Shown here piece by piece: positions 31,003 to 55,225 of a DNA stretch of 64,000 nucleotides. Each line of letters begins with the position of its first letter. Position 1 is the stretch's first letter. This DNA is from Pseudomonas sp. DTU_2021_1001937_2_SI_NGA_ILE_001 (GTDB taxonomy: Bacteria > Pseudomonadota > Gammaproteobacteria > Pseudomonadales > Pseudomonadaceae). Under the pieces are notes generated by a model. That model did no database searches. It saw only the letters and a program-made list of their open reading frames with translations, and was not told where the DNA came from. The DNA is taken from the NCBI RefSeq assembly GCF_032463525.1, contig NZ_CP135971.1, positions 992,001 to 1,056,000 on the forward strand. The letters are read 5' to 3'. The position numbers and the translations under genes are program-made.

Positions 31003-31026
31003 TGTATGTCACGCAAAACCCGGACA
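31003..31026 (-). promoter_or_regulatory. Extended syr-syp box and promoter of the peptin NRPS
   Basis: Read on the minus strand the site has left half TGTCCGGG, central TT and right half GACATACA. A -10-like TTAAAG begins 18 bases beyond its end (30980-30985), leaving a 17-base spacer from the last six bases of the box. The box ends 94 bases before the NRPS ATG. It points towards the NRPS. Confidence 0.75.
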
Positions 31027-31052
31027 AGCTGTCCCCGGTTCGCTGCGGTGGC

Positions 31053-31076
31053 TGTCCGGCTTTCCGGTGACAGACA
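31053..31076 (+). promoter_or_regulatory. Extended syr-syp box facing right, towards the small gene at 31145
   Basis: Left half TGTCCGGC, central TT, right half GACAGACA. A -10-like TCGAAT begins 18 bases after the box (31094-31099). The orientation is opposite to the neighbouring peptin NRPS, so this copy should drive a plus-strand transcript through 31145. Confidence 0.7.
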
Positions 31077-31144
31077 GCCAGGGGCATCGCTGCTCGAATG
31101 CCGAAACGGACGCGCATGGGGCGCGCCCTGCAGGAGGCAGGCAG

Positions 31145-31347
31145 ATGAATGATTTCGCAGCGGGACAGTACGTGCGCCTGCGCTCGGCGGTCGAGTCATG
31201 CGGGTGCTTGCCGCGCCGCCCTTTGCCAGTCCGCTGGTGGCGTGCGAGTACCAGGACAAACATCGGCGGGTGACTGGCCTCTACGCGGCCAGTGAATTGG
31301 TGCAAGCGCCGGCGCCGCGGCAGCGCGCGGCAATCGCAGGCGGATGA
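31145..31347 (+). pseudogene. Small frameshifted gene, resembles YodC/DUF2158 proteins
   Basis: ATG 31145 has a perfect AGGAGG seven bases upstream (31132-31137) and a matching promoter box at 31053. The first frame gives 42 residues (MNDFAAGQYVRLRSAVES...) and stops at 31273. A -1 shift near 31197 joins it to a frame running to 31347 (MRVLAAPPFASPLVACEYQ...LYAASELV). The joined product, about 67 residues, follows the layout of YodC/DUF2158 small proteins: an F-x-x-G-x-x-V-x-L-x-S start, a central M-x-V, then V-x-C-x-(W/Y) and a closing A-A-x-x-L-V. No slippery heptamer is visible at the junction, so a one-base loss or a sequencing error is likelier than programmed shifting. The family call is inference; that this was a translated gene is better supported. 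Confidence 0.5.
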
Positions 31348-31354
31348 GCGTGGC

Positions 31355-31957
31355 TCAGGCCAGCAACGGCTTGACTGCCACGCTGTAGAGCAGGCCACTG
31401 GCGAACAGGGCGATCACCATCGATACGCCCCGGTTCATCCAGAACGTGGCGTGCGCGGAAGTCAGGCGCCCTCCGAACATGGCCCCGAAAGCAACCCAGG
31501 CGGCCCCCACCGGCAGGACCACCAGGGTGAACGCGGCCATGAATTCCAGGTAGCTGGCGCCCGTCATGAACGTGCCGGCTGGCGCCACGAACGACGCGAA
31601 GAACAGCCCCTTGGGGTTGCTCAGGGTGGCCACGAACAACCCCACCGGCGAGAGTCCCGGAGTGGTGTCTGCGGCGCCTCGGCGTGCCATACCCCACAGC
31701 TTGATGGCGATGTAGAACAGAAACCCGACCGCAAAGACTTTGCTCGCGGTGGCCACCCAAGGATGGTCACGGGCGATCCAGTCCAGGGTCAGGCCCCAGA
31801 CGCTGATCTGCAGCATATAGGCTGCCCATTCCGCCACCACCCAGCGCAGGGCGCGCAGACTCAGACCGCGATTGACGCCGGTCTGGAACAACAGCGAGTT
31901 GGTTGGCCCGGGGACGGCCAACACGGCGAACAAGGTCAGGAAGATCGTTTCACTCAT
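31355..31957 (-). CDS. LysE/RhtB-family amino-acid exporter
   Basis: A 200-residue inner-membrane protein with the LysE-family layout: an N-terminal helix carrying FAVLAVPGPTNSLLF, GLSLRALRWVVAEWAAYMLQI, the NPKGLFFASFVAP segment and about six hydrophobic stretches, at the usual family length. The family exports amino acids and similar small compounds (Lys, Thr, homoserine). The substrate here cannot be read from sequence. It lies between the peptin NRPS and the diaminobutyrate aminotransferase gene, and an extended syr-syp box (32018-32041) points at it with a TTCAAT -10 and a short leader. That suggests co-expression with the lipopeptide genes, perhaps to relieve build-up of an amino-acid precursor (inference). 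Start ATG 31957 with GGTGAG eight bases upstream. Confidence 0.85.
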   Translation of the reverse strand: MSETIFLTLFAVLAVPGPTNSLLFQTGVNRGLSLRALRWVVAEWAAYMLQISVWGLTLDWIARDHPWVATASKVFAVGFLFYIAIKLWGMARRGAADTTPGLSPVGLFVATLSNPKGLFFASFVAPAGTFMTGASYLEFMAAFTLVVLPVGAAWVAFGAMFGGRLTSAHATFWMNRGVSMVIALFASGLLYSVAVKPLLA

Positions 31958-32017
31958 GCGCGGTACTCACCTGTCTTGAAATTACAGAGCCGGTATTGAA
32001 GCTTCGCTCACCGGCAG

Positions 32018-32041
32018 TGTCTGGCATGGAAAGCCGGGACA
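32018..32041 (-). promoter_or_regulatory. Extended syr-syp box between lysE-like and dat genes
   Basis: On the minus strand: left half TGTCCCGG, central TT, right half GCCAGACA; TTCAAT begins 18 bases downstream (31995-32000). It faces the LysE-family gene. The divergent dat gene has only a poor plus-strand match (from 32059), so either this copy serves both or dat is driven differently. Confidence 0.65.
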
Positions 32042-32133
32042 GCCGGGTCGGCGGAAATTGTCCGGTCGCCGGCACTGCCGGAGAATCGAGCTGCCCATGG
32101 GGCCTATCTCTTTCGCGCAACGGATGACCGAAC

Positions 32134-33441: not shown

Positions 33442-33753
33442 GGCAGGCTGGAGCGTTTTATCACTCAAGGGCCTTGGCCGCGGAAAGCTTCCCGGCTGAA
33501 GCCAATACCGTTCGCTTAAGCGGCATGTGGCCCGGTGGGAGCGGCTTTAGCCGCGAAAGCGCCAGGAAATTCACGGCATCTGTTGTGAACAGGCGATCGC
33601 TTCGCGGCTAAAGCCGCTCCTACCCGGCCTGACTGAACAGTATTGCGGCTAAATCCAATACTGGTGAGTTAAGAGCTCTTCGGCTTTTTTTGGAGCGACC
33701 TGATCGAAGGGTATCGGGTTCAAGCGCAATGGGCCGTCCGTGGCCCTTTGTGC
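33442..33753. other. Intergenic stretch between dat and syrD ends, filled with repeats
   Basis: About 310 bases between two convergent genes. It holds the REP pair at 33534-33624 and most of a longer intergenic repeat from 33640. No credible small gene is visible. Confidence 0.7.
33534..33624. repeat. Inverted pair of Pseudomonas REP elements
   Basis: The left arm (33534-33560) contains GGAGCGGCTTTAGCCGCG. The right arm (33599-33624) is its inverse, GCTTCGCGGCTAAAGCCGCT..., ending CCTACC. The right arm is identical over 26 bases to the REP at 42822-42847. The type is abundant between genes in P. putida-group genomes. Confidence 0.88.
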
Positions 33754-33760
33754 CTAAGCC
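33640..33760 (+). repeat. Intergenic direct repeat, copy A (internally deleted)
   Basis: Begins GCGGCTAAATCCAATAC (33645-33661), continues through CTCTTCGG and TTGGAGC, and ends with a segment GCAATGG(G)CCGTCC(G)TGGCCC...GCCTAAGCC (33726-33760). The same start and end flank a longer interior in copy B at 40900-41150, in the same orientation. The right end overlaps the stop codon of syrD. Confidence 0.7.
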
Positions 33761-35451
33761 TGCCGCTCCTGCAGTGTGCAATCGACATCCGAGACGATCC
33801 GTCCACTGTCGAGCTTGATGATGCGGTCGGCCAGCTGGAAGTACTGGTCGTCGTGGGTGATGATCAGCACCGTCTTGCCGCGCCGCTTCAGGTCGGGCAG
33901 CAGCTCCTGATAGAAGAAGCGCTTGAACGGCGGATCCTGGTCGGCGGCCCACTCATCGAGCACGTACACCGGCCGGTCCTCCAGGTAGGCACACACCAGC
34001 GCCAGGCGTTTCTGCTGCCCGTACGACAGCGCCTTGAGCGTCGAGTAGCCGTGCCCCTGAATCTGCACCTTGTCCGCCAGCCCCAGGGTTTCCAGGTACT
34101 GTTTGGCGGTGTCCGGACAGGCGCCGTTTTCATCCGGACCGATCAGCCGGTTGAACAGCTGGAAGTCCGAGAACACCGCCGAGAACAGGTCGCGGTAGGC
34201 GCTGCGGTTGTGCTCGTCGACGACTTGGTCGCCCAGTTTGAGCTGGCCATCGCTGGGCACATAAAGCCCGCACAGGACCTTGGCCAGGGTACTTTTGCCG
34301 CACCCGTTGCCGCCCACGATGTACACCAGCTGCCCGGGTACCAGCTGCAGGTCGATGGGACCCAGGGCAAAGCCCGCGCTGGCATCGGCGCCCTGGTACT
34401 GCACCCGCACACCCTGCAACGAAATGCCCGGCATGCCTTCGCTGCCGGCGACGGCGGGCAGCGAAGGCACGTCCGGCTCGACGGTATGGCCGTGATGCGC
34501 ATCGATGGAAAAGCCGAACTGCGCCAAGCGGGTACTGGCCACCCGCCCCTGGGCGAGCACCGGCATGGCCCCAACCAGCAGCGATACCGGCCCCATGATG
34601 TACAGCACTGCCAGCAGGCTGGCGGTCAGCACACTGGGCTCGAGCACCGCCAGTTGCGGCGCGACGAACAGCAGGCAGCCGATCAGCAACGACAAGGTCA
34701 GCTGACCGACGTTGTCGCCCAGGGTAAACCACACCCTTTCGACGAAATTCAGCTGCGCCACACGGGTGGACGACGCCTCGATTGCCGTACGGCTGAACCA
34801 GTTGCGGCGAATGCGGTTGAGCTTGAGTTCCTTGAGCCCGAATACCAGCGCATGGGTGTATTCATTGAAGGCGGTGTATTCGTCGCGCATGCGGCTTGAC
34901 ACGCCGATGCCCTTGCCGAAGCAGAAGAAATACAGCACCACGCCGAGCAGCATCAGGCCCAGGGTGAAGGCCAGCACCACCCACGACAGGTAGGCCAGGT
35001 AGCCGATACCGAAGACGAACACCGTGGCCTCGACCAGCACCGTGGGAATCACCACCAGCGTGGTGCTGAGCTGGGGAATGTCGGTGGTGAGCATGGTCAG
35101 CACATTGGCCGCGCCGCGCCGGTCGACTTCCTCCAGGGGGGTGACGAGGATCTTGCGGCACAGCGCGATGCGCAGGTGGGTCATGATGCGCCGGCTGGCG
35201 AGCGCCGGGAAGAGTGCCGCGCCGTTGCGAAACAGCAGCGCCACCACACTCAGGCCGACGAACCAGTACAGCGCCGTAGAGCGGGCGGCGTCATCGTGGA
35301 TCGCCGTGTTGATTACGTTGACCACCGCGATGGAGGCCACCCCGCTGATCACCCCGGTCAGTACGGTGAACAGGGTCAGCCAGGGGTGGCTGCGCCATAG
35401 CAGGCGCAGCAGCGAACCGGGCTTGGCCGGCGTGTCGGCTGCGCTACTCAT
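33754..35451 (-). CDS. syrD: SyrD/PvdE-type cyclic-peptide ABC exporter
   Basis: A 565-residue fused ABC exporter of the cyclic-peptide transporter family, acting in the inner membrane as a homodimer to move the lipopeptide to the periplasm. The N-terminal half has about six membrane helices starting with WRSHPWLTLFTVLTGVISG. The C-terminal ATPase carries Walker A GGNGCGKST, signature LSYGQQKRLAL (a Q/Y variant usual in this family) and Walker B VYVLDEW followed by the ITHDD switch. Its ATG (35451) overlaps the stop of the syrP-like gene by four bases (ATGA), so the two form one operon read from the box at 36608. In P. syringae SyrD is needed for syringomycin export. The last codons and the stop lie inside an intergenic repeat. 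Confidence 0.93.
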   Translation of the reverse strand: MSSAADTPAKPGSLLRLLWRSHPWLTLFTVLTGVISGVASIAVVNVINTAIHDDAARSTALYWFVGLSVVALLFRNGAALFPALASRRIMTHLRIALCRKILVTPLEEVDRRGAANVLTMLTTDIPQLSTTLVVIPTVLVEATVFVFGIGYLAYLSWVVLAFTLGLMLLGVVLYFFCFGKGIGVSSRMRDEYTAFNEYTHALVFGLKELKLNRIRRNWFSRTAIEASSTRVAQLNFVERVWFTLGDNVGQLTLSLLIGCLLFVAPQLAVLEPSVLTASLLAVLYIMGPVSLLVGAMPVLAQGRVASTRLAQFGFSIDAHHGHTVEPDVPSLPAVAGSEGMPGISLQGVRVQYQGADASAGFALGPIDLQLVPGQLVYIVGGNGCGKSTLAKVLCGLYVPSDGQLKLGDQVVDEHNRSAYRDLFSAVFSDFQLFNRLIGPDENGACPDTAKQYLETLGLADKVQIQGHGYSTLKALSYGQQKRLALVCAYLEDRPVYVLDEWAADQDPPFKRFFYQELLPDLKRRGKTVLIITHDDQYFQLADRIIKLDSGRIVSDVDCTLQERQA

Positions 35452-36509
35452 GACCGCCTCCAGACCTGGTCACGCTCGACCATCTCGCCCATGGCCACGG
35501 CGATCAGGCGAGGCTCCTGATAAGGGTCACGGGCATGCGCGGTGAGCATGTTGTCGAGCATCACCAGGTCGCCCTGCCGCCAGTCGAAGCGTACCGCGCA
35601 GGCCTCATAGGCCTGGCCGATCAATTCCATGGTGTGGTCGTCGATGGGGCTGCCATCGCCATAGCTCACCAGCCGTGGCAGGCGGCCCTCGCCGAACAGG
35701 TCGAGCAGGTCTTCCCGCATGTCTTCACCCAGGCAGTACGGGTGATGCAGTTGCACCTGATTGAAGAACGCCGCCTCGCCGGTAATCGGATGCTGCAGCA
35801 CGCCAGGGCAATGGGTATGGATCTGCAGGGTGTTGTCGTCGAGCCATTCGAATGGCGTGCCCTGCGCGCGGCAGTGGGCCTCTACCTGCTCGCGCTGCTC
35901 GGTGCCGAAGAACTGCTGCCAGCTCGGCTCGACCCCCTCGATGAAGGTGCGGCTGTAACGCAGGCCCTTGCTGGCGAAGGCCTGCGCCACGTCGGCTGGC
36001 AGCCGGCGCAGTACCTGGCGGATGTCGGCCAGCGGCGTGGCACCTCCCACCTTGGACGGCAGCTCGCAGTAGAACCATTGCTTGCGCGGCCAGCTCTCCA
36101 GGTGCGAACTCTCGTTGTGGTACAGGATCATTTCCCGCTCCGGATAAGGCGTGGAGCGGTACACGTTGCGCCCGCCTTCCTTTTTCGGCAGGTCGCCATA
36201 GCCGCCATGCAGGCCTGGCGACAGCGCTTCGGCAAAGGCTTCGAAGGCCGCCACGCTGTCCAGACCAAACCCACGGAACAGCAGCGCACCGTGCTCGCAC
36301 AGCAGAGCGTCCAGGGCGCAACGCTGTTCGGCGGCCCAGGCGAGAACATCCAGACCTGGCTGCGCGGGCTCTATCACCAGCGGCAAGGTGGCCTGCGGCG
36401 ACAGCGGCGCAACGCGCACGCGGTCGTCCAGCGCCCCACCTGGTGGTTGCAAGGGCATCGTGCGGCCAGCGTGGCTGACGGTGGACGAGGCATGGGTGTC
36501 TGCGGTCAT
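35448..36509 (-). CDS. syrP: SyrP-like Fe(II)/2-oxoglutarate aspartyl hydroxylase
   Basis: A 353-residue TauD-family oxygenase. SyrP in P. syringae adds the 3-hydroxyl group to the Asp residue held on the mycin NRPS. Iron ligands are visible as H131-N-E133 (LYHNESSH) and a distal His near residue 325 in LTAHARDPYQEPR, whose Arg binds 2-oxoglutarate. The stretch LPSKVGGATPLAD is typical of the SyrP group. Start ATG 36509 is preceded by GGGAG; the box at 36608-36631 with TTAGAT -10 lies upstream, and the syrD gene overlaps its stop. The role follows from the neighbouring chlorothreonine cassette and mycin NRPS. An AspH-family gene at 52151 could share or split the same job. Confidence 0.9.
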   Translation of the reverse strand: MTADTHASSTVSHAGRTMPLQPPGGALDDRVRVAPLSPQATLPLVIEPAQPGLDVLAWAAEQRCALDALLCEHGALLFRGFGLDSVAAFEAFAEALSPGLHGGYGDLPKKEGGRNVYRSTPYPEREMILYHNESSHLESWPRKQWFYCELPSKVGGATPLADIRQVLRRLPADVAQAFASKGLRYSRTFIEGVEPSWQQFFGTEQREQVEAHCRAQGTPFEWLDDNTLQIHTHCPGVLQHPITGEAAFFNQVQLHHPYCLGEDMREDLLDLFGEGRLPRLVSYGDGSPIDDHTMELIGQAYEACAVRFDWRQGDLVMLDNMLTAHARDPYQEPRLIAVAMGEMVERDQVWRRS

Positions 36510-36607
36510 GGGCGGCTCCCGGGCAATGACAAAGGCTCAGGGCGCTACCGCGAAATTCCGGCATGGCGCGCCCAGCAGCCGACGATCTAAGCACCGCCCC
36601 AGAGGAC

Positions 36608-36631
36608 TGTCTGTCACCTCAAACCGGGACA
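36608..36631 (-). promoter_or_regulatory. Extended syr-syp box and promoter of syrP-syrD
   Basis: Minus strand: left half TGTCCCGG, central TT, right half GACAGACA; TTAGAT begins 18 bases downstream (36585-36590). Ends 99 bases before the syrP ATG. Back-to-back with the box at 36649. Confidence 0.82.
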
Positions 36632-36648: not shown

Positions 36649-36672
36649 TGTCCCGGTTTCCATCGACAGACA
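36649..36672 (+). promoter_or_regulatory. Extended syr-syp box and promoter of syrB1-syrB2-syrC
   Basis: Plus strand: left half TGTCCCGG, central TT, right half GACAGACA; TCCAAT (36691-36696), preceded by TGC as in extended -10 elements, begins 19 bases downstream. The box ends 113 bases before the syrB1 ATG. Confidence 0.82.
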
Positions 36673-36784
36673 CCCCGAACGCCTGGGTGCTCCAATTCTT
36701 CGATGTAAGCAAACCCATACACCCTGCGCCAGGCAAGGTGCCACGGCGTAATGCCCTTTGCGACCCCTACAGGAGCGTTATCGA

Positions 36785-38659
36785 ATGCCGATTTCTCCCC
36801 CCACTGGCAGCCCAGGCCACTCCTCCAGCACCCCGTTGCCCAAGTCTGCACTGCTGCACGAGCTGTTCAGCGCCCAGGCCCGGGCCCTTCCCGAGCGTAC
36901 CGCGGTCAGTGACCAGGACGGGGCCCTGAGCTATGCCGAACTGGATGCCGCGTCTTCGCGCCTGGCCGCTCACTTGCGCGCCGAGGGCGTCAAGGCCGGC
37001 ACCCTGGTGGGCCTGTGCCTGCCGCGCGGTACGCAGCTGGTCAGTGCCCTGCTGGGCATTCTCAAGGCCGGCGGCGCCTACGTGCCGATCGACCCGCGCT
37101 ACCCGGCCAAGCGCATTGCCCACATCATTGAGGACAGCGGCCTGCAAGTGCTGATCGGCGATGCCCAGAGCCTGGAGCAACCGCTGCCTGAAGGCATCAG
37201 GCTGCTGGGCATCGAGGCGCTGCTGCAGAGCAGCGACAAGCCACTGACGCCTGGTGATGCCCGCGACCCGGCCCAGTCGCCAGCCTATGTGATCTACACC
37301 TCCGGCTCCACCGGCACCCCCAAGGGCGTGCAGGTCACCCATGCCAACGCCAGCGCGCTGTTGGCCAGCACCCAGCGCCGCTTCGCATTCAACAGCGACG
37401 ATGTGTGGTCGATGTTCCACTCCATCGGCTTCGACTTTTCGGTCTGGGAAATCTGGGGCGCCCTGGCGTATGGCGGGCATGTGGCAATCGTGCCTTACGA
37501 GGTGTCCCGCTCGCCGCAGGCCTTCCAGGCCTGGCTGGCCAAGACCGGGGTCACCGTCCTCAGCCAGACCCCCTCGGCATTCCGCGGCCTGGACCAGGCC
37601 AATCAGCAGGCCCCCGAACCACTGGCACTGCGTTACGTGGTGTTCGGTGGCGAGGCGCTGCCGTCCAGCGTGCTGAAGTCCTGGGTGGCGCGCCATGGCG
37701 ACGCACAGCCGCAACTGGTGAACATGTACGGGATTACCGAGGCCACGGTGCACACCACCTACCACCGCGTATTGGCCAAGGACCTGGCGAACCACACCAG
37801 CGTACCGATCGGCGAGCCGCTGGATGGCTGGGTCCTGCACCTGCTCGACGAACATGGCGATGCCGTGGCGGACGGGCAAGTGGGTGAACTGTTCATCGAA
37901 GGCGCAGGCGTGGCACCGGGTTACCTGAACCGTCCGGACCTGACCGCCCAGCGTTTCGTGACCCTGCCCGGCAGCCAGGCGCGTGCCTACCGCAGCGGCG
38001 ACCTGCTCAGCCGTGACAGCCAGGGCGTGCATCACTACAAGGGGCGCGCCGACCAGCAGCTGAAGGTGCGCGGCTTCCGTATCGAGGCCGGTGAGGTGCA
38101 GGCCTGCCTGCAGCGCGACGGACTGATCAGCGCCAGCCATGTCTGCGCCCACGATTACGGCGACGGTGACGTTCGCCTGCTGGCCTATGTGGTGCCGGCC
38201 GATGGCGGCGGACAGCTGAGCCCTGCCCTGCGCGAGCGCCTGGCCGCCCTGGCCAGCGAGCACCTGCCCGACTTCATGCGTCCTTCGGCCTACATGGCAC
38301 TGGCGCAACTGCCATTGACCGACCACGGCAAGATCGACAGCGCCCGCCTGCCCTCGCCGAGCAGCGCCGATCAGCCGGCGGCGCAACCGCAAAGCGACCT
38401 TTCGGAACACCAGCGCCGCGTGCTCAAGGTGTGGTCCGAAGACATCGGCCTCAAAGGCATTGGCATCGACGACGACTTCTTCGACTTCGGCGGCACCTCG
38501 CTGGCGCTGATCCGCGCCCTGAGCGTTCTGAAAAACCACTACCGCATCGACCTCAACCCCGGTGTGCTGGCCGATGGCGCCACCGCACGGATCCTGGCCC
38601 AGAGCATTGAAATGTCACTTGCCAACGCCCAACGTTCGAAGGAGCAAGCCCATGTCTGA
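36785..38659 (+). CDS. syrB1: SyrB1-like free-standing A-T didomain, Thr-activating
   Basis: A 624-residue adenylation-carrier protein. It activates L-Thr and holds it as a thioester for SyrB2 to chlorinate. The A-domain core [15 protein letters not shown] is followed by a pocket reading DFWSVGMVH, the SyrB1 type of Thr signature, and the carrier site FGGTSLAL near residue 573 replaces the usual GGHSL. There is no condensation domain, which fits an in-trans loading protein. ATG 36785 is chosen over a TTG at 36758 because AGGAGCG lies eight bases upstream and SyrB1 proteins start close to this point. The stop overlaps the syrB2 start by eight bases. Confidence 0.94.
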
Positions 38660-45840: not shown

Positions 45841-48800
45841 CTACCCCTTGCCCAGCCGCCGCTTCAGGCACTGCAGCACGTCGTCCACCCAGGTGAAGAT
45901 CACCGGTACCACCAGCAGGCTCAGCACGGTCGAGGCCAACAGACCGCCCATCACGATCACCGCCATCGGCTGGCGGAACGCCGGGTCTTCGCCGAAGCCC
46001 AGGGCGGTGGGCAGCATGCCGCCGCCCATCGCCAGGGTGGTCATGATGATCGGCCGCGCGCGCTTGTGGCAGGCATCGATCAGCGCGTCGTAACGGCTCA
46101 TGCCCCTTTCACGGCGCGCGACGATGGCGTATTCCACCAGCAGGATGGAGTTCTTGGTCACGATCCCCATCAGCATCAGGAAGCCGATCACCGACGGCAG
46201 CGAAAAGCTCATGCCACACAGGATCAGCGCCAGCAGCGCGCCGCCCAGCGACAGCGGCAGCGCCGAGAGAATGGTCGCCGGTTGCAGGAAGTCGTGGAAC
46301 AGCAGCACCAGCACCGCATACACGCACAACACACCGATAGCCATCGCCAGGCCGAAGCTGGCGAACAGCTCGGTCATCAGCTGCAGCTCGCCCTGCTCGA
46401 CGATCTTCACCTGTTCGGGCAGATGCTGCATGGCTGGCAGTTGCCGCGCCTCGGCCATGACATCGCCCAGGTTACGGCCATTGAGTTCCACTGACAGCGT
46501 GATGTTGCGCAAGCGGTCCAGGCGGGTGATCTGCGCCGGGCCACTGCCCATGCTCAGCTCGCCCAGCGAGGCGAGCGCCACCTGGCCGTCGCGGCCAGCG
46601 ACCCGTAGCTGGCCGATCAGCCCCAGGTCGTGGCGCACCGCCGGGTCCATGCGCACCCGCACATCCACCTGGCGCTGCGACAGGTTGATCTTGCCCAGTT
46701 GCGAGCTGTATTGCCCGTAGGTGGCCATGCGCAGGGTGTCGGCGATGGCCTGGCTGGTGATGCCCTGTGCCGCCGCGCGCGCCGTGTCCGGATGCATCTG
46801 GATCTCCGGGCGTTGCAAGGCGCTGCTGGAGGACACCGCGCCAATGCCGTGAATTTGCCGCAATTGCGGCTCCAGCGCCTGTGCGGTGCGCTCCAGCAGG
46901 TCGCCGTCGTCACTGGCCAGTACGATGCTGAGCTTTTCGCCGCTGCTGTCCCCCCCCACATCGACACGTGCGCCCGGGAGGCTGCGTAGCGCCTCGCGCA
47001 TCTTCGACTCCACCGCGCTCTGCTTGATCGAACGCTGGTCGCGGGGCACCAGTTCGACGGTAAGGACCGCATCGCCGGCGCCGATGATGCCCGCCGCGCC
47101 TGAGGCCGAGCTTTTCGCCGAGCCCACCACGCTGAACACATGCGCGACCTCGGGAATCGCCCGCAGGCGCTGGTCGGCCTGCCGGGTGATCTGCGCGGTC
47201 TGTTCGAGCGTGGTGCCCGGCGGCAGCTCCAGCATCACCTTGCTGGTGCCACTGTCCTGCGCGGGCAGGAAGCTGGTGGACAGCCAGGGGATCAACCCCA
47301 GGGTACCGATGAAGAACAGCGTGACGGCCAGGAAAGTGGCACGGCGCCGGGTCAGGGTCAGGTGAATCCAGCCCAGGTAGCGCCGCATGAGCGGGCCGTC
47401 GCGCTCGGACTCCTGGCGGGCCTTGAGGAAATACGCGGCCATCATCGGCGTGAGCACCCGCGCCACCAGCAGCGAAAACAGCAGCGCCACCGAAGCGGTC
47501 ACGCCGAACTGGCGAAACAGTTTGCCCACCACGCCGCCCATGAAGGCGGTGGGCAGGAACACCGCGACCAGCGTGAAGGTCGTGGCCAGCACCGCCAGGC
47601 CGATTTCACCCGCCGCCTCGCTGGCCGCGCGGGCCGGCGGCGTCCCCCCACGCAAGTGGCGGGCGATGTTCTCGATCTCGACGATGGCATCGTCCACCAG
47701 CACCCCGATCACCAGCGCCAGGGCCAGCAGAGAGATGGTGTTGAGGGTGAAGCCTGCCAGGTACATCACCCCGAAGGTCGGCAGGATCGACAGCGGCAAC
47801 GCCGTGGCGACGATCAGCGTGGCGCGCCAGTCGCGCAGGAACAGCCCGACCACCAGCACCGCCAGCAGCATGCCCTCGTAAAGAAGGTGCATCGAGTCGT
47901 GGTAGTTGGCCAGGATCGGCCGCACGGTGTCGCTGACCTCGGTGATCTTCACCTGCGGGTGCTGGGCCTGGAAGCTGGCCATCGCTTCGCGTGCGCCCTG
48001 CGCCACCTCCACGTCGGAGAAGCCCAGCGAACGGGTCAACTGCACGCCGATCACCGGCTTGCCGTCATGAAAGGCCAGGCTGCTGCGCTCGGCATGGCCG
48101 TCGCGGACAGTACCCAGCTGGCTCAGCGGCAACAGTCGCCCGTCGGCGCTGGGAATCGCCAGCCGGGCCAGCGCTGCGGGGTCGTCGATCGCGCCCAAGG
48201 TACGCACCGCCTGCTGGCCGCTGCCCAGGTTGCCCTGGCCGCCGGAGTTGTCCTTCTGCATGGCCCTGAGCTGGGCATCGACCTCGGCCACGCTGACACC
48301 CAGCCCGGCCATCAGTGCCGGGTCCAGGTCCACCTGTACTTCCCGATCGACCCCGCCGCTACGGGCGATCTGGGCAATGCCGGGGACACTCAGGAGCTTC
48401 TTCGCCAGGTCGTTATCGACGAACCACGACAACGCCTCCTCGTCCATCCCCGGCGCTTCGACCACGTAGCTGAGCAACGGCGCGGCACTGGTGGTCAGGC
48501 GCGACACCGACGGTGTGTCGAGGTTGGCCGGCAGCCCCGGCATGGCGCTGTCGACGGCGTTGCGCACCTCCATCAGTGCTTCGTCGCCGTCCTTGTCGAT
48601 CTCGAAGCTGACACTGATGGTCACCGCACCGTCGGTGATCACCGTGTTCACGTGCTTGAGCAGACGCAGCGAGGTCAGGCGGTCCTCGAGCTTGCGCGCC
48701 ACCTCGGTTTCCAACTGTTCGGGCGCGGCGCCTTCCAGAGAGGCGGTGATCGTCACCACCGGCAGGTCCATGTCCGGGAAGTCCTGGATGGGCAGGCGCT

Positions 48801-48888
48801 CGAAGCCCAGCCAGCCGAACAGCGTCAGCACGATGAACAGCAGCACACCCGGTACCGGGTAGCGGATCGACCAGGCCGAAAGGTTCAT
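45841..48888 (-). CDS. pseC: RND efflux pump inner-membrane subunit (PseC-like)
   Basis: A 1015-residue RND transporter, the proton-driven inner-membrane part of a tripartite pump. N-terminal helix PVPGVLLFIVLTLFGWLGF, then FPDMDLPVVTI and the porter domain; the proton-relay pair of Asp residues sits in LVIGVLVDDAIVEIENI. It is the last gene of a three-gene operon; ATG 48888 overlaps the adaptor stop by four bases. In P. syringae the PseABC pump lies at the edge of the syr-syp island and takes part in syringomycin/syringopeptin secretion. The operon carries an extended syr-syp box at 51476, which supports the same role here. The symbol is by analogy. Confidence 0.9.
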   Translation of the reverse strand: MNLSAWSIRYPVPGVLLFIVLTLFGWLGFERLPIQDFPDMDLPVVTITASLEGAAPEQLETEVARKLEDRLTSLRLLKHVNTVITDGAVTISVSFEIDKDGDEALMEVRNAVDSAMPGLPANLDTPSVSRLTTSAAPLLSYVVEAPGMDEEALSWFVDNDLAKKLLSVPGIAQIARSGGVDREVQVDLDPALMAGLGVSVAEVDAQLRAMQKDNSGGQGNLGSGQQAVRTLGAIDDPAALARLAIPSADGRLLPLSQLGTVRDGHAERSSLAFHDGKPVIGVQLTRSLGFSDVEVAQGAREAMASFQAQHPQVKITEVSDTVRPILANYHDSMHLLYEGMLLAVLVVGLFLRDWRATLIVATALPLSILPTFGVMYLAGFTLNTISLLALALVIGVLVDDAIVEIENIARHLRGGTPPARAASEAAGEIGLAVLATTFTLVAVFLPTAFMGGVVGKLFRQFGVTASVALLFSLLVARVLTPMMAAYFLKARQESERDGPLMRRYLGWIHLTLTRRRATFLAVTLFFIGTLGLIPWLSTSFLPAQDSGTSKVMLELPPGTTLEQTAQITRQADQRLRAIPEVAHVFSVVGSAKSSASGAAGIIGAGDAVLTVELVPRDQRSIKQSAVESKMREALRSLPGARVDVGGDSSGEKLSIVLASDDGDLLERTAQALEPQLRQIHGIGAVSSSSALQRPEIQMHPDTARAAAQGITSQAIADTLRMATYGQYSSQLGKINLSQRQVDVRVRMDPAVRHDLGLIGQLRVAGRDGQVALASLGELSMGSGPAQITRLDRLRNITLSVELNGRNLGDVMAEARQLPAMQHLPEQVKIVEQGELQLMTELFASFGLAMAIGVLCVYAVLVLLFHDFLQPATILSALPLSLGGALLALILCGMSFSLPSVIGFLMLMGIVTKNSILLVEYAIVARRERGMSRYDALIDACHKRARPIIMTTLAMGGGMLPTALGFGEDPAFRQPMAVIVMGGLLASTVLSLLVVPVIFTWVDDVLQCLKRRLGKG

Positions 48889-49997
48889 AGGGTGGCGCCT
48901 TCGGCTGGAACCACAGTGACCTTCGCGCCGTCGGCCAGGAACGCACCGCCGCTGCGTACCACCGGGGTGTCGGCATCCAGCCCGCTGAGCACTTCAACGG
49001 CCTGCTGCTGGCGTCGGCCGAGGGTCACCAACTGCTGCTTGACGTGCTGGTCCGCCCCCACGCTGAAGACATACGAACGCCCGTCGCGCAGCACCACGGC
49101 CGAGTCCGGCAGGGTCAGCGCGTCGCGCGTCGGCAGGTCGATCCGGCCACTGGCATACATGCCGGCCTGGGCCGGGCTGCCAACCGGCAGCGCCACATAG
49201 ACCAGCGCACGGCTGGTCTTGGCGTCCAGCACGGGCGACACCAGGCGCACCTGGCCGGTGACCTGCTGGCCGTCTGGCAACTGCACCCGGGCCACCTGAC
49301 CGATCCGCACCTGGGACAGTTGCCGGGCATCCAGCTCGGCCTGCCACTCGATGCGATTACCGCGGATCAGGCGAAACAGCTCATCGCCAGCGGCCAGCAC
49401 TTTGCCCAGCAGCGCCGTGCGCGAGGAAATCACTCCGTCGTCGACGGCCAGGATCCTGGTCTGGCCAAGGTTGATGCGGGTTGCCCGCAAATCAGCCTCG
49501 GCGCTGGCCAGCGCAGCCTTGGCCACCGCGACCTGGATGCGGTACTGCTCGCGCTGCTGGTCGGACAACGAGCCGCCCTGCCCCACGACATTCGCGCGGC
49601 GGTCGTTGGAGCGGGCTTCCTCCAGATTGGCACGCGCCTGAGCCACGGCGGCCAGCTGTTTCTGTTCCTGGGCCTGAACGGTCTCCGGGGCCAGGGTCGC
49701 CAGCACCTGGCCTTTTTTCACCTGGCTGCCGACATCGGCATTCAGGCTGGCGATACGCAAGCCGCTGGTTTCGGCGTTGATCACCGCCTCTTGCCAGGCC
49801 GCCAGCGCGCCACTGGCCTGCAACACGCCGGGCCACTGCTGGCGTTGCGGCTTGACCACTTCCACGCTGAGGCTGCTGACCGTTTCGCTCGGCGCATCGT
49901 TTTCGGGGGGCGGTGCAGGTGTACAACGACTCGACAGCACCCCCACCAGCACGACGCCGGCAGCGACCAGCAGGCTGTTACGGAGCCAAGGTTTCAT
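48885..49997 (-). CDS. pseB: RND periplasmic adaptor (PseB-like)
   Basis: A 370-residue membrane-fusion protein. One N-terminal membrane helix (NSLLVAAGVVLVGVL) anchors it. An SSRC follows, but Arg before the Cys makes it a poor lipobox. The lipoyl-like half-motifs ASGALAAWQEAVINAE and VKKGQVLATL flank a coiled-coil hairpin (residues about 110-180), and beta-barrel segments follow (VLAAGDELFRLI, VSPVLDAKTSRALVYVALP). It bridges the RND transporter and the outer-membrane channel. ATG 49997 is chosen, not the upstream in-frame ATG at 50054, because it overlaps the previous stop as ATGA and places the signal anchor at the very start. Confidence 0.9.
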   Translation of the reverse strand: MKPWLRNSLLVAAGVVLVGVLSSRCTPAPPPENDAPSETVSSLSVEVVKPQRQQWPGVLQASGALAAWQEAVINAETSGLRIASLNADVGSQVKKGQVLATLAPETVQAQEQKQLAAVAQARANLEEARSNDRRANVVGQGGSLSDQQREQYRIQVAVAKAALASAEADLRATRINLGQTRILAVDDGVISSRTALLGKVLAAGDELFRLIRGNRIEWQAELDARQLSQVRIGQVARVQLPDGQQVTGQVRLVSPVLDAKTSRALVYVALPVGSPAQAGMYASGRIDLPTRDALTLPDSAVVLRDGRSYVFSVGADQHVKQQLVTLGRRQQQAVEVLSGLDADTPVVRSGGAFLADGAKVTVVPAEGATL

Positions 49998-51445
49998 GTG
50001 CCACCTCCCGGCAACGAAGATGGCTGGCGCGCCAGCGGAGCATCGGGCTGCCAACCGCCGCCCAGGGCTTTGTAGAGATTGATCCAGTCACGCACTTGGT
50101 CCTGTTGCAGGGTGATGCGCTGGATGTCGGCTTCCAGCGCCTGGCGGCGCGCCGTTTCGCGGTCCAGCAGGCTGGCATTGCCGGCCTGCCAGTTGCGGTC
50201 GGTGGCTTCGAAAGAGGCTTGGTAACCGGCGCTGGCACGCTCGGCCGAGGCTTCGCGGCGGCCACTGGCGTCCAGCCGCACCAGCGCCTGCTCCACCTCC
50301 ATCACGCCGGTGCGCAGGGTCTGCCGATAGGCTGCGACGGCGGCGGCGTATACCGCTTCGGCGCCACGCTGGGTGGCCAGGCGTCGACCGCCGTCGAGTA
50401 GCGGCAGTGAAATGCTCGGCCCCAGGGTCCAGCTACGGTTGGCCTGGCCGATCTGCGCACCGGCGGTGAACGTACCCACCAGGCTCAGGCTGGGCAGGCG
50501 GTCGGCCTTGGCGACGCCGATCTCGGCATTGGCGGCGGCCATTTCCCGCTCACGCGAGGCGATGTCCGGGCGTTGCCGGACCAGGTCCGCCGGAATCTGC
50601 GTCACCTGCAGCTGTGCAGGCTGCGGCAAGCGGGCCGGTGTCGCGTCGAGCACGCTCCGCAGACGTGGCTCGTTGCCGCCGGTCAGGGCAACCAGACTCT
50701 TGACCAGCAGCTGGCACTGCGACTCTTGCTCGATCAGCGCAGACTGGCTGCTGGCGGCACTGGCGTCGGCCAATGCGGCGTCGGCGCTGGAGATCAGGCC
50801 AGCCTGCAAGGATTGTCGGGTGGCATCGGCCGTCGCCTGCTGCGAGCGCAGCTGGTCTGCGTAAAGTTGGCTGAGCAACTGGCAACCCCGGTACTGCACG
50901 TAATCATTGGCCACCTGCGCCGCCAGCGACACGCGCGCGTCGTGCCAGTCATCCACCCGCGCCTCCAGGCGTGCCTGGCCAGCCTCGTTGTTGCGCCGCA
51001 GCTTGCCGAACAGGTCCAGCTCCCAGCTGGCATCCAGGGTCTTGGCATAGCCTGAACCGCCGACCTTCTGCTCGCCCTGGCGCTGGCCGCCACGACCCAC
51101 CTGGTATTGGCCGTTGACCTGGGGCCAGGCATCGGCCTCACGGCTGCCCAGCGTGGCCCGCGCCTGGGCGATGTTGGCCCAGGCCTGATCCATGCTCGGG
51201 CTGTCGGCCTCGGCCATGCGCAGCAGTTGAGTCAGCGCCGGGTCGTTGAATTGCTGCCACCAGTGCTGCAGGCCGCTGACCGAGCCGCCATGCGGCAACG
51301 GCGCTTGCCATTGCGGGTCGAGCGCAACCGGCGGACGCTGGTAGTCCGGGCCCAGCATGCAGCCGCCCAGAGCCAGCGCAGTGCAGGCCCAGGCCAATAA
51401 AGGCAGGCGTTTGAGAGGGTCGAGGCGGTACGTGAAGGTGCGCAT
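49994..51445 (-). CDS. pseA: Outer-membrane efflux lipoprotein (PseA/NodT family)
   Basis: A 483-residue TolC-like outer-membrane factor. The signal peptide ends in a lipobox (LALGGC), and CMLGPDYQRP is the classic start of OprM/NodT lipoproteins. Two repeats of the channel domain follow (FNDPALTQLLRMAEADSPSMDQAWANI...; LPSLSLVGTFTAG...). It is the first gene of the pseA-B-C operon. The -10-like TCTAAT lies only seven bases before ATG 51445 and no Shine-Dalgarno sequence precedes it, so the message may be leaderless. Divergent from the small gene at 51692. Confidence 0.9.
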   Translation of the reverse strand: MRTFTYRLDPLKRLPLLAWACTALALGGCMLGPDYQRPPVALDPQWQAPLPHGGSVSGLQHWWQQFNDPALTQLLRMAEADSPSMDQAWANIAQARATLGSREADAWPQVNGQYQVGRGGQRQGEQKVGGSGYAKTLDASWELDLFGKLRRNNEAGQARLEARVDDWHDARVSLAAQVANDYVQYRGCQLLSQLYADQLRSQQATADATRQSLQAGLISSADAALADASAASSQSALIEQESQCQLLVKSLVALTGGNEPRLRSVLDATPARLPQPAQLQVTQIPADLVRQRPDIASREREMAAANAEIGVAKADRLPSLSLVGTFTAGAQIGQANRSWTLGPSISLPLLDGGRRLATQRGAEAVYAAAVAAYRQTLRTGVMEVEQALVRLDASGRREASAERASAGYQASFEATDRNWQAGNASLLDRETARRQALEADIQRITLQQDQVRDWINLYKALGGGWQPDAPLARQPSSLPGGGT

Positions 51446-51475
51446 GCGGGAAATTAGACCTGCCGTCTCGGAAGG

Positions 51476-51499
51476 CGTCTGTCACCAGAAACCGGGACA
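51476..51499 (-). promoter_or_regulatory. Extended syr-syp box of the pseABC operon
   Basis: Minus strand: left half TGTCCCGG, central TT, right half GACAGACG; TCTAAT (51453-51458) begins 18 bases downstream. The expected transcription start falls at or next to the pseA ATG. Confidence 0.8.
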
Positions 51500-51526: not shown

Positions 51527-51550
51527 TGTCCCGGGTTCAGGTGCCAGACA
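51527..51550 (+). promoter_or_regulatory. Extended syr-syp box facing the small SyrC-N-like gene
   Basis: Plus strand: left half TGTCCCGG, central TT, right half GCCAGACA; a weaker TGAACT begins 18 bases on (51568-51573). The box ends 142 bases before ATG 51692. Back-to-back with the pseABC box. Confidence 0.68.
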
Positions 51551-51691
51551 CCTGCAATCAAGGATGATGAACTGGCAGACCTGCGATTCCCAAGACGCAC
51601 CAATCCGTTGGCCAGCAGTCGAAGCCTTCTGATGCCATTGATGCCACAACGCCGCCATCGGCGCGGCGTGACCGTCCGGAGTTCAGCCCCA

Positions 51692-52090
51692 ATGTCCCAA
51701 ACCCAAGATGTAGCCCTGCGTTTATGTGAAACCGTCAGCCGCTTCCGGCACCTGGCCGAGCAGCTGCCGCCGCCGGTATGCCTGAGTTTTCTGGCCCGTG
51801 AAGGCGAACCAGACCCCGAAGAAGCCAGCCAGAGCGTGCGTGCCACCGAGCGCGCGCTGACCTCGGTGCTGGTGCAGGTGGGCGTGCGCCCGGTGTACTA
51901 CGTGCACGGCCTGGCGCAGGCGCTGAGCGAAGATGAATACCTGCTCAGCACCCAGTTGTGCCAGGCACTGGATTACGCCTACGCGCACTTCGATGAGCCG
52001 GAGAGCTGCAAGACCCTGGCGCGGGTGGTCAAGGCGTTCGATTTCGCCGACGCCGCTGCCGAGCCCAAGCCTGTTCCTGTCGCAGTGTGA
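51692..52090 (+). CDS. Small protein homologous to the N-terminal domain of SyrC
   Basis: A 132-residue soluble protein with no signal or membrane segment. Aligned by eye to residues 8-95 of the SyrC-like protein of this window it shares LR-x-C-x-x-V-x-x-x-RHLA-x-x-LP-x-P, then ER, GV-x-P, H, LS-x-x-E and a final AL: about 26 identities over some 85 positions with one gap of about seven. It lacks the whole hydrolase part (no G-I-C-G-G), so it cannot shuttle chlorothreonine itself. A binding partner for SyrB1, the NRPS or SyrC is conceivable but not shown. ATG 51692 with CGGAG upstream; in-frame ATGs from 51608 precede it but lack a ribosome-binding site. It has its own syr-syp type box, and a perfect hairpin follows its stop. 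Confidence 0.75.
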   Translation: MSQTQDVALRLCETVSRFRHLAEQLPPPVCLSFLAREGEPDPEEASQSVRATERALTSVLVQVGVRPVYYVHGLAQALSEDEYLLSTQLCQALDYAYAHFDEPESCKTLARVVKAFDFADAAAEPKPVPVAV

Positions 52091-52104: not shown

Positions 52105-52136
52105 GGCCCCGGACAACGTCGTCACTGTCCGGGGCC
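52105..52136. terminator. Perfect 11-bp hairpin between convergent genes
   Basis: GGCCCCGGACA / TGTCCGGGGCC with a 10-base loop, between the stops at 52090 (plus) and 52151 (minus). No T-run follows on either side, so termination efficiency is uncertain; the position fits a two-way terminator. Confidence 0.55.
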
Positions 52137-52150
52137 TGGCAGGACCCTGC

Positions 52151-52762
52151 TCAGGCGACCATGTGCACGTCGCGGTAGAACTCCATGTACAGCACCGTAC
52201 GGTGGCCTCGTGAGGCGTTCACGGCGAAATGGTCCAGCGAGCCGTCGAAGATCACCAAGTTGCCATTGGTGCTTTGATTGAAGCTGCCGTTCACGTTGAG
52301 GTAGGCGTAGTTCTGCTCCAGTGGCGCATCGACGGTCAGTTGCATGTGCAACAGGCCCTCTTCCCAGGTGCCGGTGTGCGCATGGGTGCCAAGAAACACA
52401 TTGGGCTCCATGCGCAGCAGCGCGCACAGCTTGATGCCAGGCACCTGGGCCAGCAGATCGAGGGTGCGCGGCATGGCCTCGCGAACGTGGGGAATGGCCT
52501 TGTCGTAGGCCACCAGGCCGTACTGGGTCCACTCCGGCATGGGCTGCATGTTGTCGCCCCAGCCCCACAGCCAACCGTATTCACCGCCGGCCTGCATGTG
52601 CTGGTCGACCTCGTCGACGATTTCGGTGATCGACTTGCCGACCCGGTTGATGGTCAGTGTAGGGGCGTCAAGGGCCAGGAATTCCTGGCGTATCACTTCC
52701 CAGTTGTTGGCCAGGCGCTGCAGGTGCGGAAAGCGGCTGGCGTCATAAAACGAGGGGCGCAT
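52151..52762 (-). CDS. AspH-family aspartyl/asparaginyl beta-hydroxylase
   Basis: A 203-residue Asp_Arg_Hydrox-family Fe(II)/2-oxoglutarate enzyme. The family pattern is visible: first iron His in GTHAHTGTWEEGLLHMQLTVD, then VIFDGSLDHFAVNASRGHRTVLYMEFYRD with the second His and the 2-oxoglutarate-binding Arg. Such enzymes hydroxylate the beta-carbon of Asp, Asn or related residues, and several NRPS clusters use them on carrier-bound Asp. Here a SyrP-like enzyme already covers hydroxy-Asp, so this one may act on another residue of the mycin or peptin. ATG 52762 is preceded by AAGGAGA (six bases); an upstream in-frame ATG at 52780 is less likely. A syr-syp type box lies inside the end of the MFS gene just upstream. 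Confidence 0.87.
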   Translation of the reverse strand: MRPSFYDASRFPHLQRLANNWEVIRQEFLALDAPTLTINRVGKSITEIVDEVDQHMQAGGEYGWLWGWGDNMQPMPEWTQYGLVAYDKAIPHVREAMPRTLDLLAQVPGIKLCALLRMEPNVFLGTHAHTGTWEEGLLHMQLTVDAPLEQNYAYLNVNGSFNQSTNGNLVIFDGSLDHFAVNASRGHRTVLYMEFYRDVHMVA

Positions 52763-52791
52763 CGGGGGTCTCCTTCTCAATGATCAGCGTT

Positions 52792-54141
52792 CTAGCTGGC
52801 CAAGGGTGACTGCCCGGCTTCGGGCTGTCTGTCATGTGAAACCGGTACAGTCCGGCCGAGCCGGCGCATCGCCCGCGAAGCCAGCAGGGCGAGTACCAAC
52901 AGGCCCAGCAGCGCCCCCAGGCTTACCAGCAGCAGGCCCACGCCACGCCCGACGCCAGTACCCAGCCAGGGTCCCAGGACGGCAGCATAGGCACCGCCCG
53001 GCAGCATGGCCGGTTGCAGCCAGTGGTCGACGGCAAAGCCGGCCAGCAGCGTCAGGACACTGGTCGTGGCAATGGTCAGCATGCTGATCAGGGCGAACAC
53101 GCTGGCGCGACTGGCGGCGCCCAGGTTGCGCATCCACAAGGCATTCACGCAGGCATCGGCAATGCCGGCCACACAGATGGCGACGAACACCAACGGGTAG
53201 TAGGCCCAAGGCTGGGCGACCCAGCCCAGGCCCATGACACAGGCGGCCAGTACCGCATCGGCCAGGGTCGCGCTGACCAGCAGGTTGCGCGGCTCACCCA
53301 GCACGATCAGCACACCGGCTGCCGCCAGGCCACCCAGCGCCGCCCAGGTGTAGGCCATGCCCAGCGCCTGGCTGCCCAGGGTCGAGAGCAGCAAGGGCGT
53401 CATCATCAAGGTGGCCACCGCCACCACGGCACCACGGGCCATGGTGTAGACCAGCAGGCCAAGCAAGGTCCGACGGCTGGCCAGAAACCGCAGCGCCAGG
53501 CGCACATGCCCCTGGGCGCTGCCGGTTGTCGGTTCAGGCTCGGGCTTGTCAACCACGACCCGACGCAACCCGGAGAACGCCTTGACCACCAGCAGCGAGC
53601 CGGCGCAGTAAGCGATCAGGTCGACCATCAGAATGGTCACCAGCCCCGAGTGGGCCATGATCGCCCCGGCCAGCAAGGGCGCTACCAGCGCCGAAGTGTT
53701 CTTGCTCAGGCTGCTCAGCCCCGAGGCCTTGGTGAACTTGCCGGGTTTCACCAGCAGGCTGACTGCCGCCTGGTAGGCCGGCTTGCGAAAGGCACTGACC
53801 ACTGACGCCAGGGCGTTGAAGGCGTACAGGTGCAAGGGTTGTAGACGATCGGTCCACAATAGCGCCATCAGGCCGAGCAACAGCGTGGCGAGAATCAGGT
53901 CGCAGCACAGAATGATCGCCCGGTGACTGAAGCGGTCGGCCAGCCCGCCGGCCAGCGGCAGGAACAGCACGGCCGGCAGGGTCGCCGCCAGCACCGCGTT
54001 GGCAAACGCCACGGTCGAGCCGGTGTGGTTGTAAACCCATACGCCCAAGGCGAATTCCATCAGTGCGGTGCCCACCACCGCCAGCGACTCGCCGCACCAG
54101 AGCCAGTAGAAGCCGCGCCCCAGGTCGAAACGCCCGCTCAT
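52792..54141 (-). CDS. MFS transporter
   Basis: A 449-residue major-facilitator protein of the MFS_3/EntS-like drug-exporter kind, with about 12 membrane helices. Visible are GRGFYWLWCGESLAVVGTALMEFALGVWVYN at the start and LADRFSHRAIILCCDLIL, the A-motif loop between helices 2 and 3. Start ATG 54141 overlaps the stop of the cupin-like gene as ATGA; an upstream in-frame start at 54357 would lie inside that gene. Placed between two putative tailoring enzymes and next to the mycin NRPS, it could export the product or confer self-resistance (inference). Its last 20 or so codons contain the promoter box of the following AspH gene. Confidence 0.87.
   Translation of the reverse strand: MSGRFDLGRGFYWLWCGESLAVVGTALMEFALGVWVYNHTGSTVAFANAVLAATLPAVLFLPLAGGLADRFSHRAIILCCDLILATLLLGLMALLWTDRLQPLHLYAFNALASVVSAFRKPAYQAAVSLLVKPGKFTKASGLSSLSKNTSALVAPLLAGAIMAHSGLVTILMVDLIAYCAGSLLVVKAFSGLRRVVVDKPEPEPTTGSAQGHVRLALRFLASRRTLLGLLVYTMARGAVVAVATLMMTPLLLSTLGSQALGMAYTWAALGGLAAAGVLIVLGEPRNLLVSATLADAVLAACVMGLGWVAQPWAYYPLVFVAICVAGIADACVNALWMRNLGAASRASVFALISMLTIATTSVLTLLAGFAVDHWLQPAMLPGGAYAAVLGPWLGTGVGRGVGLLLVSLGALLGLLVLALLASRAMRRLGRTVPVSHDRQPEAGQSPLAS
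52826..52849 (-). promoter_or_regulatory. Extended syr-syp box inside the 3' end of the MFS gene
   Basis: Minus strand: left half TGTACCGG, central TT, right half GACAGACA. Ends 64 bases before the AspH start. The -10 at the usual spacing is poor (CACCCT), so this copy is the weakest as a promoter although the box itself is good. Confidence 0.58.
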
Positions 54142-55124
54142 GCCGCCCCCCTTCTCAAGCCGTTGGCCAGGCGCCAGGCCATGGAATAGCCCACGGCGGC
54201 GGCCACCAGCGGCGCGTAACGCGAGAACAGGTAGGTGCGCAGTACGCGCCGGGCGATGGGCGAACGGATATCGCCACTGACATGCAAGGGGGTGCGGAAA
54301 GTCGCCGCCACCGTGGCGCCATAGGCTTCGTCCAGCGACTGCACGGCGTGCCACCAATACACCGGGATGTACAACGCATCGCCCGGGCCGACCACGGTGC
54401 GCAGCGGTTGCAGCGCCTGGGTGCCGGGAAAGCGCTCGGTGTCGATGTCGTACAGCCGCCCGGTGTCTTCGATCACCGGGCGCAGGGCGCGCCAGGCCGC
54501 TTCATCGGGCGGCAGGATCAGCACCTCCTTGGCACCCACCACCTGGGCCATGAAGGTCTCGTCGGTGACGTGGAAATGCCAGTCGGTGTAGGAGTCGCGA
54601 TACAGAAAGCTGCGGTGCGCCGGGTAGGCCAGCGACTTGCCCAGGGTCGGCATGAACGGCAGCCCGCCCACATCGTCCTTCATCGGCTCGATGGCCGAGC
54701 CTTCGCTGAAGCGGCAGCTGTCCGCCACCCAGGGCCCGCTGCCGGCCGTCAGGCCAGCAAGAAACTCATGAAAGGGCATGTCGCGGTACACGCTGTTGGC
54801 GTAGGCCGTGAGTTCGGCCTTGACCTGCGGGCGCGCCCAGCCGATCACCTCGGGCACCACCTGGGCGCGCACCACCACCGGTTTGTTGTGCGAATGCCGG
54901 ACCAGGTAATCCAGCGCCTGCCAGCGCTCGAACGCCGGCCAGTGGCGTACCGCATTGCGCACCAGGCAGGGTCGGTTGCGGTTCACGTAATGATGAACGA
55001 AGTCGGCGCGGCTGATGCTCAGGGCGTCGATCTCGTCCACCGCGCCACAGCGGGTGTAGTTGGGAAAGCGCGACAGGCTCCAGAACTTGTTCGCCGGCTG
55101 CGCGAGCGATTGGGGCAATGACAT
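54138..55124 (-). CDS. Cupin-8/JmjC-like putative 2-oxoglutarate dioxygenase
   Basis: A 328-residue protein with the FIH-like JmjC/cupin-8 pattern: SYTDWHFHVTDETFMAQVVG, KEVLILPPDE and TVVGPGDALYIPVYWWHAVQS, the last being the stretch that brings the C-terminal iron His. The expected H-x-D at the first iron site reads H-F-H here. A hydrophobic segment near the C-terminus (PLVAAAVGYSMAW) is unusual for the family and might tether it to the membrane. It is the first gene of an operon with the MFS transporter, read away from the mycin NRPS, with which it shares the intergenic region. Its substrate is unknown; a tailoring hydroxylation on the lipopeptide or its fatty acid is possible. Confidence 0.78.
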   Translation of the reverse strand: MSLPQSLAQPANKFWSLSRFPNYTRCGAVDEIDALSISRADFVHHYVNRNRPCLVRNAVRHWPAFERWQALDYLVRHSHNKPVVVRAQVVPEVIGWARPQVKAELTAYANSVYRDMPFHEFLAGLTAGSGPWVADSCRFSEGSAIEPMKDDVGGLPFMPTLGKSLAYPAHRSFLYRDSYTDWHFHVTDETFMAQVVGAKEVLILPPDEAAWRALRPVIEDTGRLYDIDTERFPGTQALQPLRTVVGPGDALYIPVYWWHAVQSLDEAYGATVAATFRTPLHVSGDIRSPIARRVLRTYLFSRYAPLVAAAVGYSMAWRLANGLRRGAA

Positions 55125-55201
55125 GTTCGCCTCGTGATGGCTCAGAACGAGGCCCTAGGTATAACAGCCCGCCCGGTCCAGACCCCGGCATGGATGGCCA
55201 T

Positions 55202-55225
55202 TGTCCCCGCTTTCCGTGACAGCCA
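55202..55225 (+). promoter_or_regulatory. Extended syr-syp box of the mycin NRPS
   Basis: Plus strand: left half TGTCCCCG, central TT, right half GACAGCCA; TAGTTT begins 18 bases downstream (or TCTAGT at 16). The box ends 92 bases before the NRPS ATG. It may also serve the divergent cupin-MFS operon, for which no separate copy was found. Confidence 0.72.

Follow-up and report, generated by a model that had tools for sequence, protein, structure and literature searches.

The window analysed here is a stretch of 64,000 nucleotides (992001-1056000 of contig 1 of a Pseudomonas genome) which overlaps a 105-kb lipopeptide region of the same contig. Besides frames for non-ribosomal peptide synthetases (NRPS), this region encodes an adenylation-domain protein, a cyclic-peptide ABC exporter, a diaminobutyrate aminotransferase and a tripartite efflux set, together with TauD-, Asp/Asn-hydroxylase-, cupin-, LysE-, PhyH-, MFS- and MacB-type proteins. 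Judged by gene family and order, we take it to resemble a mycin and peptin region. Nine 24-base sites are present in the window at the coordinates and on the strands of the original prediction, each deviating from TGTCCCGGNTTNNNNNGACAGACA at no more than two positions, and two of them at none; dinucleotide-preserving shuffling gave a mean of 0.07 and a maximum of one such site per window (100 shuffles).

The site at 31003..31026 (-) faces an NRPS frame of 9598 amino acids (2113-30909, -), and 23 of its 24 bases are the same in the sister species G113. The small ORF faced by the site at 31053..31076 (+) lies near 31145, and in the window its frame is broken; G113 possesses this site and an intact copy of the ORF. 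A LysE-type gene (31355-31957, -) is faced by the site at 32018..32041 (-), and a TauD-type gene (35448-36509, -), followed by the cyclic-peptide ABC exporter gene (33754-35451, -), by the site at 36608..36631 (-). On the other strand, the site at 36649..36672 (+) faces the adenylation-domain gene (36758-38659, +) and then a PhyH-type gene (38562-39599, +). The efflux set (outer-membrane factor, 49994-51445, -; adaptor, 48885-50054, -; RND permease, 45841-48888, -) is preceded by the site at 51476..51499 (-). The site at 51527..51550 (+) faces a gene for a 132-aa protein (51692-52090, +) with no assigned family; protein and site are found in G113 too, and the G113 copy of the protein gave no Pfam match. 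The site at 52826..52849 (-) faces an Asp/Asn-hydroxylase-type gene (52151-52780, -), and the same pairing of box and gene occurs at 17 more loci. Finally, the site at 55202..55225 (+) faces an NRPS frame starting near 55270 (+). The box had been predicted to face a gene everywhere, which is clear for eight of the nine sites, 31053(+) with its broken small ORF being the exception.

Distribution of the box in this and other genomes

When the whole genome (5,662,787 bases) was scanned with up to three mismatches, 13 matches to the 24-base form were found (two in the reversed control). Twelve of them are located within the lipopeptide region, between 942763 and 1047225, i.e., the 24-base form does not lie at random loci, and its location is near-exclusive to this region. 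The thirteenth match (3880973, three mismatches) was rejected as a member of the set, scoring 18.7 compared with at least 28.7 for the 12 sites of the region in a matrix that includes these sites. Furthermore, a matrix that drew only on other species (28 unique 24-mers) gave scores of at least 23.5 for all 12 sites, the next score in the ~146 kb scanned being 12.7. Three of the 12 sites fall outside the window, on its left side: 942763(-) and 942831(+) form a divergent pair between an HlyD-type membrane-fusion gene and a LuxR-type gene, and 981069(-) sits between two long NRPS frames (seen in pieces that were left unjoined). The prediction that the racemase block stands outside the set was borne out, as no box precedes it. 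The claim that all lipopeptide genes carry the box must be dropped: no site was found upstream of the diaminobutyrate aminotransferase gene (32134+), of the cupin/MFS pair (55124 to 52792, minus strand) or of the second LuxR gene of the region (genome 945952+).

Across the genus, 121 of 398 genomes contain a match with at most two mismatches; the reversed control matched ~34 genomes (counted by hand), and therefore part of the single hits must be due to chance. The source genome shares its genus group with G079 and G124. Among 75 matching stretches from a contig database, 58 carry the name Pseudomonas, and the remaining 17 were set aside by organism name. Of 30 loci from the genus scan (L020-L049), 23 are of the lipopeptide type; the seven without a lipopeptide-type gene (L020, L021, L032, L038, L043, L046, L049) were dropped before the following counts. 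The genes downstream of the 111 lipopeptide-type sites, grouped by blastp into families named after the window genes, encode NRPS or adenylation proteins (64), hydroxylases (18), TauD-type proteins (12), LuxR-type regulators (6), outer-membrane factors (2) and membrane fusion proteins (2); three are window genes with no relative in the set, and four are unclassed. One single site precedes a two-module NRPS gene (two Condensation and two AMP-binding stretches), and at another locus a single site lies between divergent LuxR and NRPS genes. Both loci appear to be single-lipopeptide clusters.

Dyad, extension and predicted -10

The element consists of a 20-bp dyad, TGTCCCGG N TT NNNNN GACA, and a conserved GACA that follows it on the gene side. 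That the known syr-syp dyad is contained in the element holds for the 12 sites of the genome, as 11 have 0-1 mismatch to the 20-base core and one has two. A query with this core, which ignores the extension, returned 11 matches with at most one mismatch in the whole genome, all of them in the lipopeptide region. Each of the 11 is followed by at least three of the four bases of GACA (exact in seven), a result expected by chance in ~5% of sites with uniform bases, and the predicted asymmetric extension was thus recovered. At two mismatches there are 20 more matches, one of which is the twelfth site, 31053. The total of 31 at up to two mismatches is equalled by the reversed control (31), and the signal is thus confined to the close 20-base matches.

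In eight other genomes, picked for having 24-base sites, 40 core matches with at most one mismatch were found, and the next four bases are exactly GACA in 28, match it in three positions in three and in 0-2 positions in nine. Thirty-one of the 40 matches account for 22 exact cases and all nine poor ones; the other nine comprise six exact cases and three with three of four bases. The following GACA hence separates two groups of 20-base matches in these genomes. In the flanks of fetched loci, 17 further sites gave 15 exact cases, 14 of which are copies of one promoter, and two poor ones. On the left side, the mirror bases match TGTC in three of four positions in only two of 104 sites and completely in none, and the 24-base form is therefore asymmetric.

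The original prediction had placed -10-like hexamers at a fixed distance from the box, and the hexamers it quoted are indeed present, seven at base 18 past the box and one (TCCAAT) at base 19; at the remaining site, 52826, the hexamer at base 18 reads CACCCT. We searched for the -10 using a weighted matrix. The predicted -10 sequences are TCGAAT (31094..31099, +) for the 31053 promoter and TTCAAT (31995..32000, -) for the 32018 promoter; the 31003 promoter (30979..30985, -) offers TTAAAG at 18 or TAAAGT at 19. By matrix, the hexamers proposed for the promoters 36608 (TTAGAT, 36585..36590, -), 36649 (TCCAAT at offset 19, 36691..36696, +) and 51476 (TCTAAT, 51453..51458, -) are second best, and that for 51527 (TGAACT, 51568..51573, +) is third best. 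The position at 52826 (CACCCT, 52803..52808, -) is very weak, although conserved in G113, and the 55202 promoter (55243..55248, +) has TAGTTT at 18 with TCTAGT at 16 as an alternative. The -10 hexamers are weak, and the single best position falls at offset 18 in four and at 19 in one of the nine window sites.

For the 12 sites of the genome the mean -10 score peaks at offset 18 (0.65, the next being -0.88 at 19), and none of 2000 shuffles reached this peak; the single best hexamer lies at 18 or 19 in eight of the 12. In the set of 111 lipopeptide-type sites, the weighted matrix places the best -10 at 18 in 74 and at 19 in 18 (92 of 111). Of 90 unique downstream sequences, 74 have it at 18 or 19, compared with 9% in shuffles, and 51 of these 74 are NRPS promoters. 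For TauD-type promoters, six of nine unique sequences favour offset 22, and for hydroxylase promoters eight of 15 favour 19, so that the -10 register is shared rather than exact. Thus, from the claim of a -10 at exactly 18 the phased weak -10 stands, but the register is 18-19, with 16 as an alternative for peptin-type NRPS promoters. Plain, unweighted counting of TATAAT matches finds offset 16 most often (52 of 118 sites), which speaks against a register of 18-19; the weighted matrix shifts the preference to 18/19, and both outcomes are given here.

The 12 sites of G113 pair one to one with the 12 sites described here. Identity between the two species is 95.5% in the box and 95.2% in the 7-base -10 block, compared with 79.4% in the spacer and 82.8 and 85.4% in the flanks (-10 block versus spacer, p = 0.0006). 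It is the spacer that drifts, between a conserved box and a conserved predicted -10.

A LuxR gene with its own box

Two GerE matches were found in the region, the LuxR genes at genome positions 942980 and 945952, both outside the window. In Pfam searches, the two regulators matched GerE and, below threshold, HTH_23, with no autoinducer-binding domain at the thresholds used. A box lies 125 bases upstream of the gene at 942980, which is followed by an outer-membrane factor gene. As a syrF-oprM gene order has been reported (PMC4783005, as far as available to us), the gene is likely SyrF-like, a label based on gene order only. The nearest relative of its product (93% identity) is found in Pseudomonas sp. 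GOM7. In six other genomes, picked for having boxes, there were 17 matches to this protein. All nine examined relatives with 39-93% identity and a returned locus have an upstream box-like site facing the gene (19.5-34.7 bits; three of these boxes were already in the genus scan), and none of three more distant relatives (34-35%) has such a site. The five matches that came without a locus were kept outside this count.

The own-gene box disagrees with one published negative report. According to the available part of that work, neither syrF nor syrG was found to have a syr-syp box, the start of syrF lying 498 bp upstream (PMC4783005), whereas here the operon of LuxR and outer-membrane factor genes is preceded by one. 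Genome G018 shows the same order as the present region, with fusion protein, box pair, LuxR gene and, as assigned by eye, an outer-membrane-factor-like gene, and the site before the LuxR gene has three mismatches. Such a site could have been missed in the published search, or the G018 gene could be other than syrF. In the same source, as far as seen, deletion of syrF lowers syrF::gfp expression from 44,857 to 7,713, and syrB1::gfp keeps part of its expression in deletions of syrF and of syrG (PMC4783005); from the latter, more than one regulator may act.

A candidate operator-promoter and its known relatives

We consider it probable (roughly 80%), judging from sequence, that the element is an extended, directional syr-syp box that makes up an activator-dependent weak sigma70 promoter, serving lipopeptide genes and the activator gene itself. 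A SyrF-type LuxR regulator would read the 20-bp dyad as a dimer, and CAGACA, the last six bases, would take the place of a weak -35, 17-18 bases before the weak -10. The dyad centre, computed from the predicted -10, comes to lie near -43; lux boxes sit close to -43. Bound activator would keep sigma70 polymerase at a promoter that is too weak to function unaided, biosynthesis, tailoring and export genes would be switched on together, and the activator would raise its own gene via the same box. The box before the activator's gene would make a simple and testable feedback loop.

It is also conceivable, though in our judgement unlikely, that the extra GACA is read by the activator as a third GACA-type contact giving direction, and that CAGACA is not used as -35. 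Indeed, GACAGACA is a direct repeat, the box-like sites before LuxR genes often have a degenerate right GACA (TACA) with the extension kept, and the weak -10 with its variable register is loose for a fixed -35. However, a phased -10 at 17-18 bases past CAGACA is what a -35 predicts, and no trade-off between the two GACA copies was detected (p = 1). A role of the box as the operator of a repressor or another DNA-binding protein, rather than of a LuxR-type activator, seems very improbable: an operator over the -35 can repress too, but P. syringae SyrF binds the syr-syp box and activates the syr-syp genes (literature including PMC4783005, in the parts available), and GerE-type LuxR genes are present in the same region, one of them with its own box. 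Chance, or common descent of duplicated upstream regions with no regulatory function, can practically be dismissed. Related NRPS genes do carry copies of one another's promoters in several cases, but three results already contradict this reading: nine sites were seen where 0.07 are expected, unrelated downstream families share the box, and the spacer drifts beside a conserved box and -10.

With the activator-dependent promoter as the preferred reading, we tentatively propose, at slightly less than even confidence, that in Pseudomonas lipopeptide clusters the functional unit is a directional 24-base operator-promoter whose direction is set by GACAGACA on the gene side, that the SyrF-type activator gene has a variant of it, and that positive self-feedback via the box is conserved in producers of several lipopeptides and of a single one, also in P. 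syringae-group genomes, for which its absence has been reported. A more sharply defined box would allow prediction of lipopeptide regulons from sequence.

The lux and las-rhl boxes are 20-bp inverted repeats near -42 that overlap the -35, and their half-site differs from that of the present element. AHL-type lux boxes are read by LuxR proteins with an autoinducer-binding domain; the two cluster regulators, candidate readers of the present box, match GerE and gave no match to such a domain in Pfam at the thresholds used. A 'lux box' has also been noted in nunamycin and nunapeptin promoters and assigned to an AHL-binding complex, which, according to the available part of the review, is not experimentally proven (PMC10928948). 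The likeness is one of setting, as this box too lies in promoters of related mycin and peptin clusters.

The closest counterpart is the syr-syp box of P. syringae pv. syringae, a 20-bp dyad before lipopeptide biosynthesis and export genes, located around the -35 of sigma70-like promoters and read by SyrF dimers (Wang et al. 2006, as cited in the available parts of PMC3597554 and PMC4783005). Genes for both biosynthesis and secretion follow the present boxes as well (NRPS, adenylation, TauD-type and efflux genes), and the named genomes L082 and L123 have related boxes before TauD-type and NRPS genes. The element differs from the syr-syp box, as described in the parts of this literature at hand, in its four additional conserved bases on the gene side. 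Neither the GACA extension nor the feedback box is described in the parts of the syr-syp literature surveyed, which include the 2006 work as cited by others. We make no claim that either is unpublished, and the best reading of the element is that of a known LuxR-type activator box, now more sharply defined.

Box-associated genes in the window

One copy of the box (the 24-base extended syr-syp element), 52826-52849 (-), overlaps an MFS-type frame (52792-54357, minus strand) and falls wholly within its 3' end, and the predicted promoter of the hydroxylase gene is therefore placed inside the upstream MFS-type gene. Opposite the efflux operon, a 132-aa protein with its own box is encoded at 51692-52090 (+); this protein belongs to no known Pfam family and is kept in the sister-species Pseudomonas genome G113. 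Furthermore, a small ORF (31067-31347, plus strand) is located downstream of the 31053(+) box, its reading frame being interrupted (or affected by a sequencing error). The sister species has an unbroken copy of this ORF (L187:427-630), and this copy gave no match in the Pfam search.

Matches without the extension or outside Pseudomonas

Two Pseudomonas genomes possess the site TGTCCCGGATTGCCGGTACA, which resembles the 20-base core and is followed by AAAC, without the gene-side GACA extension; it lies on the minus strand in both cases (L117 near 3882; L165 near 1501). The 24-base pattern has one match in each of two Amphritea species (L075, L094); these matches could be due to chance or to a common locus.

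Gene neighbourhoods in other genomes

At locus L206, a LuxR gene from among the less closely related ones (34-35% identity to the region's LuxR protein) has no box, and the adjoining ORF (L206:2341-3114, minus strand) resembles an AHL synthase gene. At locus L192, the two-module NRPS gene with a box adjoins a McbB/SagB/YcaO set (L192:7352-11921), within which a Gly/Cys-rich ORF of 66 aa is located on the minus strand (L192:11721-11921). We take this set, together with the small ORF, to resemble a microcin B17-like cluster.
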